Part shown: positions 17,567 to 20,076 of the stretch, piece by piece
Layout: every line of letters starts with the position of its first letter
How positions within the stretch are numbered: position 1 is the first letter of the stretch
Origin: Dehalococcoidia bacterium
GTDB lineage: Bacteria > Chloroflexota > Dehalococcoidia > Dehalococcoidales > UBA1222
Assembly: GCA_003597995.1 (NCBI GenBank)
Contig: QZJY01000059.1
Span: forward strand, 1 to 54,137
Direction of reading: 5' to 3'
DNA length: 54,137 bases
Program-made: the position numbers and the translations under genes
Notes under the pieces: model-generated
The model's database searches: none
Told to the model about the DNA's origin: nothing
The model's input: the letters and a program-made list of their open reading frames with translations, nothing else

Positions 17567-17641
17567 TCCCCGATAGCTCAACGGTAGAGCGGGCGGCTGT
17601 TAACCGCTAGGTTCTAGGTTCGAATCCTAGTCGGGGAGCCA
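17567..17641 (+). tRNA. tRNA-Asn (GTT)
   Basis: Acceptor TCCCCGA pairs with TCGGGGA. Stem GGCGG/CCGCT carries loop CTGTTAA, giving anticodon GTT. CCA is encoded. Bases 17583-17641 reappear, interrupted, at 17920-17988 beyond a nuclease gene. Confidence 0.95.
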
Positions 17642-17657
17642 ATTTTTAAAGGCTCAA

Positions 17658-17924
17658 ATGATGGAGACACAGCAATACTTTGTCTATGTCTTGCGAAACC
17701 CTCAAGGCAGACTATACATCGGTTTTACTACCGACCTCCAAAGACGCTTGCAACAACATCAAAATGGCGAAACAGGCTGGACGAAAAGATACCGTCCTTG
17801 GGAATTAGTGTACCATGAAGTATATTCCAACCGCTCAGAAGCCATAAAACGAGAAAGAAGCCTGAAGCAAGGAAAGCGGAACCAAGAGTTACGACAATTC
17901 TTAAAACCAACCTTGGAATGGTAG
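17658..17924 (+). CDS. GIY-YIG nuclease domain protein inserted next to tRNA-Asn
   Basis: An 88-aa single-domain GIY-YIG endonuclease. It has the YVL motif at residues 10-12, YIG at 20-22, Arg29/Arg30 on the following helix and a Glu in the SEAIKRERSLK helix. Small proteins of this type (UvrC N-terminal-like) are widespread and often mobile. The gene lies between intact tRNA-Asn and a damaged second copy, and its TAG stop (17922-17924) is part of the duplicated tRNA sequence. This points to insertion at tRNA-Asn with target duplication, or to a small homing unit. An ATG at 17661 is an alternative start. Whether it cuts tRNA-Asn DNA is inference. Confidence 0.85.
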   Translation: MMETQQYFVYVLRNPQGRLYIGFTTDLQRRLQQHQNGETGWTKRYRPWELVYHEVYSNRSEAIKRERSLKQGKRNQELRQFLKPTLEW

Positions 17925-17988
17925 AGCGGGTCCTTCGGCTGAAGGATTAACCGCTAGGTTCTAGGTTCGAATCCTAGTCGGGGAGCCA
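17920..17988 (+). pseudogene. Truncated, interrupted tRNA-Asn copy
   Basis: Matches tRNA-Asn from GGTAGAGCGGG (17920-17930) and again from TTAACCGC to the 3' CCA (17947-17988, 42 bases identical to 17600-17641). The acceptor 5' strand and most of the D-arm are absent. In the anticodon stem the parent CGGCTG is flanked by TCCTT and AAGGA, a palindromic insertion totalling ten bases. It cannot fold as a normal tRNA. Confidence 0.85.
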
Positions 17989-18007: not shown

Positions 18008-19045
18008 TTGAAAGTTCTCGGTATTGACCCAGGCACCACTTCATTTGACCTCTGTCTATTAGAGGACAGGGAAGTCAAATACGAGGAAAGCCTGCCCTCA
18101 GTTGCTGTGGCGCAGTGGCCTGAGGAAATAGCCCAAAAATGCCTCGACCTCAAGCCGGATGTCCTGGTAGCCCCCTCCGGCTACGGCCTCCCCAACCGGC
18201 GATTGGGCCAGCTCAGCCGGCAGGAATTGTTTGAAACCACCCTCGTCCGCGAAGGAGAAAGCATTCCTGTTCTGGAGGGCATGAAAAAGCTTTTTGCTAT
18301 CCTCAAGGAGGCCGGCACCGATGCCATTTTCCTCCCTGGAGTTATTCAGTTGCCTACTGTCCCCAGGTGGCGCAAATTCAACAAGATAGATATGGGCACC
18401 GCCGATAAAATGTGTATCGGAGCCCTTTCGGTGGAGATGACTGCCTCCGCGAAGGGCGGGTATTCCCATGTCAACCACATCGTGGTCGAGCTTGGCGGGG
18501 GTTACAATTGCGTTATGACTATCAAAGAGGGAAAGATTGTCAACGGCATAGGCGGTACTCTCTTCCCCGGGCCAGGTTACAGAAATGCCGGGGCGATGGA
18601 TGGTGAAGTCGCCTACTTGTTAGGAGCCTTTGAAAAAGGGCTGCTTTTCGAAGGCGGCGCTGGCTATCTGGCCGGCATTGAGAATCTGGATATCGCCGCC
18701 TTTAACAGCGAGAAATATCCCGACGCCTTCAACAGTTTCATCGAAGGCATCCTCCTGGCCGTGTGTAGCCAGCGCTCCCTGCTGCCAAGTCTGGAGGTAT
18801 ACATATCCGGGCAATTGAGCAAGTATCCAAATATATATAACCCCATCATGAAACGCCTTGAAGAGTTGGGTTATGTGGTAAAACCATTGCCGTTGCTTTC
18901 CCAGGGTAGCAAGGCAGCGGCACAGGGATACGCCGTCGTAGGCAACGGGCTGTCCGGGGGCGTATATAAACCACTGGTCAGACATATGATGATAGATAAG
19001 GCATCAGGCTCTGTGCTGGATTACATTTATTGGAAATTGCCATGA
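18008..19045 (+). CDS. DUF1464 family protein (ASKHA-type, kinase-like)
   Basis: A 345-aa protein. It begins MKVLGIDPGTTSFDLCLLED, the phosphate-1 motif of the acetate/sugar kinase-Hsp70-actin fold, and has a central ELGGGYNCVMTIKEGKIVNGIGGT segment resembling the phosphate-2 motif. The whole looks like DUF1464, a mainly archaeal family annotated as butyrate-kinase-like. No experimental role is known to me. It overlaps the next radical SAM gene by ATGA, so the two are probably coupled. The SD is weak (TAGAGGTG) before the start at 18008. Archaeal-type ancestry by transfer is possible. Confidence 0.75.
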   Translation: MKVLGIDPGTTSFDLCLLEDREVKYEESLPSVAVAQWPEEIAQKCLDLKPDVLVAPSGYGLPNRRLGQLSRQELFETTLVREGESIPVLEGMKKLFAILKEAGTDAIFLPGVIQLPTVPRWRKFNKIDMGTADKMCIGALSVEMTASAKGGYSHVNHIVVELGGGYNCVMTIKEGKIVNGIGGTLFPGPGYRNAGAMDGEVAYLLGAFEKGLLFEGGAGYLAGIENLDIAAFNSEKYPDAFNSFIEGILLAVCSQRSLLPSLEVYISGQLSKYPNIYNPIMKRLEELGYVVKPLPLLSQGSKAAAQGYAVVGNGLSGGVYKPLVRHMMIDKASGSVLDYIYWKLP

Positions 19046-20076
19046 ACAATCCGGTATACATAGACTGGGCAATCGCCCGCAAATGTAACCTTAGTTGCCA
19101 GTACTGCGTCGGCATGGAAGAATCCGAGCTATCGCGCGAGCAAGCGGTCAAGGTAGCCCGGGATATTATCGAGTTGAAGCCCCGCTGGGTTATCCTCGAA
19201 GGCGGCGAGCCGTTGCTGCGCGGCGATATCTACGATATAGGTGCCATGTTCAAAAAGAATAGTATCGAAGTTTATGTCATAACCAACGGCAATGCTTTCA
19301 CATCGGAAAAGCTGAGCAAGCTGGCATCTTTTGCGCCAAAAGTCCTTTTCAGTATTGACGGTGCGACTGCCGGCACTCACGAGGCCATTAAAAGGGGCTC
19401 TAAATTCGATACCGCTCTGAAATGGGCCAGGGAGTGTGCCTCGCTGGGCATCTTTCAGGGAATCACTGCCGTGCTCTCCAGGCAAAACCGCGCGGAAGTC
19501 AAGGGCTTCATCGACCTCACTGAAAAACTGGGGGGGAGCGAAATTATATTCTTGCCGCTCAAGCCTTTTGGCGATGACGCATCGAGCTTGGAGTATTATC
19601 GACAGCATGCTTTATCGCCGCAGGAACAAGAGGAAACCATCAACGAGATATATAGCTATCCAACCGGTATCAATATTTTCTATGACGAGCCTTTTTTGTG
19701 GAATATTTCGTATAAACATGACCTCCGTCTAAGCCAGACCGACGGCGGAGTCACCATCCCCGATGTCGCCGGCTGTGCCTCTGCCTGCTCTCTCTATATC
19801 CAGACCATGGGCGATGTCAGGCCATGCATGTTCTCGCCGCGCGAGTTTTCTTTTGGCAATGCCGCCAGAGAGCCTCTAAAACAAATATGGCAGAGGATGC
19901 AGGCGAGCCAGCTACTTACCGCCTGGTCTGACCAGAAAACGAGAAGCGGTGCTTGCGGGCGGTGTCAGAAGTTTGAAAGTTGCCACGGATGCCTGGCGCG
20001 CACGGTCAGCATCACCGGAGATAGACACGGCAGCGACCCTGCCTGTCCCCTGGCCTGTTCTCCAGCCTGCCGTTGA
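19042..20076 (+). CDS. Radical SAM/SPASM domain protein
   Basis: A 344-aa enzyme. Residues 15-22 hold the radical SAM Fe-S motif CNLSCQYC. The EGGEPLLRGD, VITNGN and FSIDGA segments mark the barrel. The C-terminus has a SPASM-like cluster (CASACSLY, RPCMF, then CGRCQKFESCHGCLAR and CPLACSPAC) that would hold extra Fe-S clusters. SPASM enzymes usually modify peptides or cofactors. No small peptide gene is obvious next to it. The ATG at 19042 overlaps the stop of the DUF1464 gene, which suggests a joint function. A TTG at 19030 is less likely. The target is unknown. Confidence 0.85.
   Translation: MNNPVYIDWAIARKCNLSCQYCVGMEESELSREQAVKVARDIIELKPRWVILEGGEPLLRGDIYDIGAMFKKNSIEVYVITNGNAFTSEKLSKLASFAPKVLFSIDGATAGTHEAIKRGSKFDTALKWARECASLGIFQGITAVLSRQNRAEVKGFIDLTEKLGGSEIIFLPLKPFGDDASSLEYYRQHALSPQEQEETINEIYSYPTGINIFYDEPFLWNISYKHDLRLSQTDGGVTIPDVAGCASACSLYIQTMGDVRPCMFSPREFSFGNAAREPLKQIWQRMQASQLLTAWSDQKTRSGACGRCQKFESCHGCLARTVSITGDRHGSDPACPLACSPACR

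Follow-up and report, generated by a model that had tools for sequence, protein, structure and literature searches.

Organization of the tRNA-Asn locus

Why should a small nuclease gene lie between a functional tRNA-Asn gene and a second, incomplete copy of that tRNA? This question is raised by one locus of the window (the whole 54,137-nt stretch analysed here), which belongs to a Dehalococcoidia-type Chloroflexota genome of 1.8 Mb in 71 contigs, referred to below as G000. In the window, panC is followed by a tRNA-Phe-Leu-Gln-Asn cluster, the end member of which is the single tRNA-Asn(gtt) detected by ARAGORN (17567-17641). A nuclease ORF starts 17 bases past it, and its product belongs to the GIY-YIG type (Pfam PF01541, E = 3e-19). 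The elements of the locus are as follows.

17567-17641, + strand: functional tRNA-Asn(gtt) (ARAGORN)
17600-17946, + strand: putative mobile unit of 347 bp, holding in this order tRNA 3' half, spacer, nuclease ORF, D-arm block and hairpin (from unit periods in relatives; excision leaves an intact tRNA gene)
17658-17924, + strand: GIY-YIG nuclease gene, 88 aa (Pfam)
17920-17930, + strand: copied D-arm block GGTAGAGCGGG, holding the ORF stop codon TAG
17931-17946, + strand: hairpin TCCTTC-GGCT-GAAGGA, replacing tRNA positions 28-33
17947-17988, + strand: copy of the tRNA-Asn 3' half (42/42 identity)

The first-pass annotation had described a nuclease gene framed by tRNA-Asn and a partial duplicate, with a 42-base repeat and an 11-base block, and re-analysis reproduced this description exactly. 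Indeed, 42 nt is the longest stretch over which the tRNA recurs exactly downstream (17600-17641 = 17947-17988), against a maximum of 12 nt in the shuffled-sequence control, and the 11-nt block GGTAGAGCGGG occurs at both 17583-17593 and 17920-17930. The stop codon of the nuclease gene, likewise placed by that annotation within repeated sequence, is the TAG at 17922-17924, inside this block. Absent from the earlier description was the perfect hairpin TCCTTCGGCTGAAGGA (17931-17946), a foreign sequence in the anticodon-loop position of the copy, where it substitutes for the CGGCTG of the tRNA. The repeat period is 337 bp when measured between the D-arm blocks and 347 bp between the 3' halves, and we infer the exact ends of the unit in the window to be 17600 and 17946. 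The GIY-YIG ORF is the only one within these 347 bp. Its G+C content is 43.8%, versus 52.8-54.4% in the two flanking genes, and this low value speaks for a mobile unit.

The 88-aa protein comprises little beyond the catalytic domain, and its domain matches are GIY-YIG and T5orf172 only. Residues Y10, Y20, G22, R30, H34 and E66 are invariant in A1, the profile of the tRNA-linked type. The solved structures closest to the profile are UPF0213 proteins (PDB 1zg2 and 1ywl, E about 1e-13), followed by the DNA-branch nuclease SLX1 and by I-TevI. UPF0213 proteins share a minimal GIY-YIG domain with the window protein, but belong to a different subfamily.

Two genes situated directly past the incomplete tRNA copy (18008-20076), which we take to encode a DUF1464-like protein and a radical-SAM-like protein, are missing in the same-genus genome G001, where an ABC transporter gene comes straight after.

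Recurrence beside tRNA genes

When profile A1 was searched against the 343 genomes of the class, a distinct top group of 27 loci was obtained, 25 of which lie within about 130 nt of a tRNA gene on the same strand (Asn, Ala with three anticodons, Val, Ile, Arg, Ser and Trp). As for the two others, the tRNA-Asn of L060 is hidden by masked bases, and L061 is degenerate. Among 40 lower-scoring loci, seven of the eight belonging to the same subfamily were tRNA-adjacent, versus none of the 24 from another small GIY-YIG subfamily. The window genome itself has eight small GIY-YIG genes, only some of which lie beside a tRNA. A partial copy usually accompanies the tRNA-adjacent nucleases of the top group, and where present it matches the adjoining tRNA (Asn, Ala, Val, Ile, Arg, Met or Ser).

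The same architecture was found beyond Chloroflexota, in Candidate Phyla bacteria (CPR) and Verrucomicrobiota, with carriers in Peribacteraceae, another Patescibacteria bacterium, Gracilibacteria, Doudnabacteria and Opitutaceae. The units of Peribacteraceae and of the other Patescibacteria bacterium are located at tRNA-Ile, with 61/61 identical 3' bases, while that of Opitutaceae sits at tRNA-Met. In the CPR tRNA-Ile units, the second tRNA-Ile is otherwise intact and the unit period is 335-336 bp.

This recurrence at many tRNAs, with matching copies, is in line with the proposal of the first-pass annotation that the locus is occupied by a homing or tRNA-targeting unit, some 350 bp long, which keeps one working tRNA. 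The two situations that it had named as contrary were not encountered: in no relative is the nuclease enclosed by two full-length tRNA-Asn genes, and members of this subfamily hardly ever stand apart from a tRNA.

Pseudo-tRNAs and polarity of the units

In the best-preserved units, the second tRNA is nearly whole, a single arm being swapped for a hairpin. The latter replaces the anticodon arm in most units, the D arm in L135, and the T arm in L028 and L035. In L062, L060 and L132, hairpins occupy both the anticodon and T arms, and the same hairpin can fill both. In other units, one side of the acceptor stem is gone from the copy. The ORF stop codon lies within a tRNA D-arm in several units, at different tRNA types. 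A mirror form also exists, in which the pseudo-tRNA precedes the gene and the intact tRNA lies behind it (L059, L065, L069, L070 and L077); the pseudo-tRNA retains the 3' half when behind the gene, as in the window, and the 5' part when ahead of it.

The position of the CCA end indicates which half is native. Genome G297 carries two tandem 319-bp units at tRNA-Ala, where the functional tRNA is devoid of CCA and only the final downstream copy has the native CCA; the empty tRNA-Ala ortholog of the same-genus genome G155 has CCA. The same polarity was observed in L035. The order of a supplied 3' end ahead of the ORF and the native end behind is read from the CCA in two relatives, L058 and L035, and from the native 3' flank that follows the last copy at tRNA-Arg in G214. 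The CCA polarity in G297/G155 and L035 points to the downstream half as the original one, and the 3' half of the functional tRNA would have arrived with the unit. In the window and in most relatives, both 3' halves are identical when compared for a foreign supplied end. Given the 42/42 identity and the polarity in relatives, 17947-17988 is probably the displaced original 3' half of tRNA-Asn in the window, and 17600-17641 was probably supplied by the inserted unit.

Several variants of this organization were noted. In L009 (1226-1407) and in L053 (1240-1421), which belong to different families and concern different tRNAs (Asn and Ala), the functional tRNA is preceded by a tandem pair of 5' pseudo-tRNA units, each about 91 nt long and ending in a stretch that folds back onto the 5' portion of the tRNA. 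In L053 (1867-2115, genome G012), a tandem second copy of the nuclease contains in-frame stop codons, a case of unit decay, while G214 has an additional, internally deleted unit without the ORF.

Empty and filled sites

In four genomes of the window's family (G002, G003, G006 and G008), the Phe-Leu-Gln-Asn cluster carries neither the nuclease nor the copy. In a further genome, G004, locus L085 has only an upstream 5' pseudo-tRNA-Asn with hairpin TCCGCTTGGGGCGGA and no nuclease, and is either a relic or a non-autonomous unit. Since the downstream genes at the window locus differ between species, base-exact empty sites are found only in relatives. In genus g168, represented by two species, tRNA-Val(cac) is uninterrupted in G214 and contains a 281-bp insert in G245, both flanks being conserved (77% identity over 2.9 kb upstream, 90% downstream). 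The reverse was observed at tRNA-Arg(gcg), filled in G214 and empty in G245; here the original 3' flank CACTCT, conserved over a few bases only, follows the last copy in G214. An orthologous allele devoid of the gene is thus matched to the base for Val in g168 and nearly so for Arg; for Asn, the correspondence is at the level of the cluster. As far as can be read from sequence, these reciprocal empty and filled sites in one genus show that the unit is gained or lost whole, the tRNA being left intact. The tiny-unit proposal of the earlier annotation is strengthened by these sites and by the empty tRNA-Asn clusters of the same family.

From these comparisons, we consider it rather likely that the window harbours a homing-type, free-standing mobile unit, of a kind about 280-350 bp long, which enters tRNA genes and restores them. 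The aligned loci show a small GIY-YIG nuclease as the sole predicted gene of the unit, with one intact tRNA always remaining. Two points speak against this reading: the intact tRNA present after insertion would seem to remain a target, and with a protein that is barely larger than its catalytic domain, recognition of a given tRNA gene is hard to explain.

An ancient nuclease gene, vertically inherited between duplicated tRNA genes, one of which is decaying, would account for the locus without any mobility. In line with this, G000 and G001 share the nuclease locus, vertical descent of their nucleases as a pair is compatible with an approximately unbiased (AU) test (p = 0.54), and partial copies do decay over time, as in G001. 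However, this explanation, which we regard as improbable, is at odds with the patchy presence of the gene, the same-family empty sites, the reciprocal sites of genus g168 and the tandem units; it is also hard to hold for the whole family, where related nucleases reside at different tRNAs. Independent acquisition by G000 and G001 was considered as well. It was hinted at by the window nuclease being closer to nucleases from other orders (up to 70% identity) than to the same-genus one (51%), while panC, used as a control, ranked the relatives as expected (67% within the genus), but was unsupported by the AU test. A phage origin of the nuclease was rejected, phage relatives being less than 60% identical and the one phage locus examined not being tRNA-adjacent.

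Nuclease lineage and associated hairpins

On a tree of 35 nucleases, in which changes were compared with shuffles, tRNA identity was clustered (12 changes versus 21 in shuffles, 0/200 as low). One supported clade (98/95) mixes Ala, Val and Trp units, and the compared loci show that units of related nucleases occupy different tRNA genes. The hairpin class, assigned by eye after the data had been seen, required 6 changes, whereas shuffling inside each tRNA type gave 12 on average (0/500 as low). The hairpin tracks the nuclease lineage, not the tRNA, even within one tRNA type; because of this difference of 6 versus 12 changes, the nuclease gene and the hairpin appear to travel together. The stem of the window hairpin is found in the Asn units L057, L062, L063, L067 and L132, and a near-identical one in L060. 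The host genome does not set the hairpin, since G297 has TCCTTC hairpins in its Asn unit and CCCGAT hairpins in its Ala units.

Such pairing recalls the RAYT-REP partnership, and the nuclease might recognise the hairpin, which would spread both to loops of tRNA copies and to dispersed palindromes, tRNA genes being one landing place among others. Besides the tracking of nuclease lineage by hairpin class, this explanation draws on the pattern TCCTTC-N3-5-GAAGGA, with 156 occurrences in G078 and 31 in G320, two nuclease carriers, and on another GIY-YIG subfamily of the window genome that is flanked by repeats on either side. The same pattern is nevertheless present 236 times in G080 and 96 times in G087, where no such nuclease was among the matches, and only twice in the window genome. 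We regard this explanation as improbable. Over the 343 genomes, a link between nuclease and dispersed hairpins proved weak, high counts being found also without the nuclease. Insertion of a small mobile palindrome into the copy was likewise discarded, TCCTTCGGCTGAAGGA having a single occurrence in the genome. A wider form of the mobile-unit reading is conceivable, albeit doubtful: an undescribed broad class of tRNA-gene parasites, each made of a catalytic-domain-only GIY-YIG nuclease and its own cognate hairpin, grafted into arms of tRNA copies and maybe spread as dispersed palindromes, a counterpart of RAYT-REP with tRNA genes as safe harbours.

A control pattern was counted 2, 0 and 1 times in G078, G080 and G087, and the hairpins of these three genomes form large REP-like families. 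In the window genome, L002, L003 and L005 (contigs C34, C30 and C26) belong to another GIY-YIG subfamily, with a C-terminus like NPEWxDLYDE and no tRNA nearby. Short repeats resembling dispersed palindromic repeats lie on either side of these genes, and this subfamily may form a nuclease-repeat pair of its own.

Relation to known systems and proposed mechanism

The mobile ORFs (mORFs) of fungal mitochondria, described for instance in atp6, atp9, cox2 and nad3 of Glomus sp. and in atp6 of Allomyces, encode an endonuclease, in one case GIY-YIG, and bring a replacement 3' gene end, the native end being displaced downstream (PMC3630166). A free-standing endonuclease gene, a supplied 3' end and a displaced native end are also what is proposed for the window unit. 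By contrast, units of the window type are bacterial, target tRNA genes, measure about 0.3 kb and carry a foreign hairpin in the displaced copy; the tRNA units also have the mirror form, in which the 5' part is duplicated. SegB of phages T4 and T6, a GIY-YIG homing endonuclease of the free-standing kind, is encoded next to tRNA genes; it has been implicated in the cleavage of tRNA-containing DNA, as well as in segmental or tandem amplification via tRNA microhomology (PMC13096335; Brok-Volchanskaya 2008, as cited in PMC3984707). It is a phage enzyme, not located inside a tRNA gene with a restored half, whereas the window type is chromosomal and of 80-90 aa. By analogy, the unit may work like a free-standing homing endonuclease unit, as the tRNA-gene counterpart of mORFs and SegB.

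The mechanism that we propose for the mobile unit combines these two systems. The nuclease would cut a unit-free tRNA gene somewhere between the D-loop and the anticodon, and the break would be repaired by recombination with a gene that bears the unit, which would thereby be copied in. The missing half of the tRNA would come with the unit, leaving the host with a working tRNA. The hairpin in an arm of the pseudo-tRNA would inactivate this spare copy; prevention of loss by recombination and a signal for the nuclease are the other candidate roles. Tandem units would fit a SegB-like amplification through tRNA microhomology.

A system acting at the RNA level, in which the nuclease would act on tRNA and the pseudo-tRNA with its hairpin would serve as a decoy, regulator or antitoxin, seems the least probable explanation: pseudo-tRNAs do retain hairpins in an arm, the same one in both anticodon and T arms of L062, L060 and L132, and some occur without the nuclease (L085), but most have lost half of the acceptor stem and the loops by which a tRNA nuclease would recognise its substrate, the fold of the window copy is not superior to that of shuffled sequences (z -1.2), and the closest proteins of solved structure are UPF0213 members and a nuclease of DNA branches.

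Integrase-driven islands also insert in tRNA genes, whose 3' half they restore, and are flanked by direct repeats. The restoration of the tRNA is alike, but the window unit is of about 0.3 kb and devoid of an integrase gene. An integrase island was therefore rejected, the GIY-YIG ORF being alone between the repeats. REP-RAYT elements similarly associate a nuclease gene with a matching hairpin; here, however, a GIY-YIG enzyme takes the place of the HUH tyrosine transposase, and the hairpin is within a pseudo-tRNA. Membership in REP-RAYT was rejected, as the protein matches GIY-YIG and T5orf172 only, with no HUH transposase. A group I intron was also dismissed, an Rfam search of L001 matching tRNAs only and no intron RNA core.

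A literature search confined to open-access journal papers turned up no account of GIY-YIG units accompanied by tRNA copies. Similar units lie in many different tRNA genes of unrelated bacteria and seem to represent a minimal genetic parasite of a kind not yet described. If so, with about 0.3 kb and one protein of 80-90 aa, they would rank with the smallest autonomous mobile units known, lodging in essential genes without harm. They would explain the small GIY-YIG proteins, often annotated merely as nuclease domain proteins, beside tRNA genes, as well as the source of some tRNA fragments and pseudo-tRNAs. They would also offer a compact model of site finding by a nuclease without a separate DNA-binding domain, and of nuclease-hairpin pairing.

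UPF0213-like genes at tRNA-Ser

Among the UPF0213 matches in the class, only one of nine lies within 150 nt of a tRNA. Several other UPF0213 matches come after tRNA-Ser genes, and in two cases a copy with a hairpin in the T loop is present. UPF0213-like GIY-YIG genes located straight after tRNA-Ser are L007 (contig C6 of the window genome, 17199-17432), L013, L028 and L035. In L028 and L035, a copy of the tRNA-Ser 3' part follows the gene and bears the T-loop hairpin TTCCTCGACTTC...GGAATAAA, which resembles widespread dispersed repeats.
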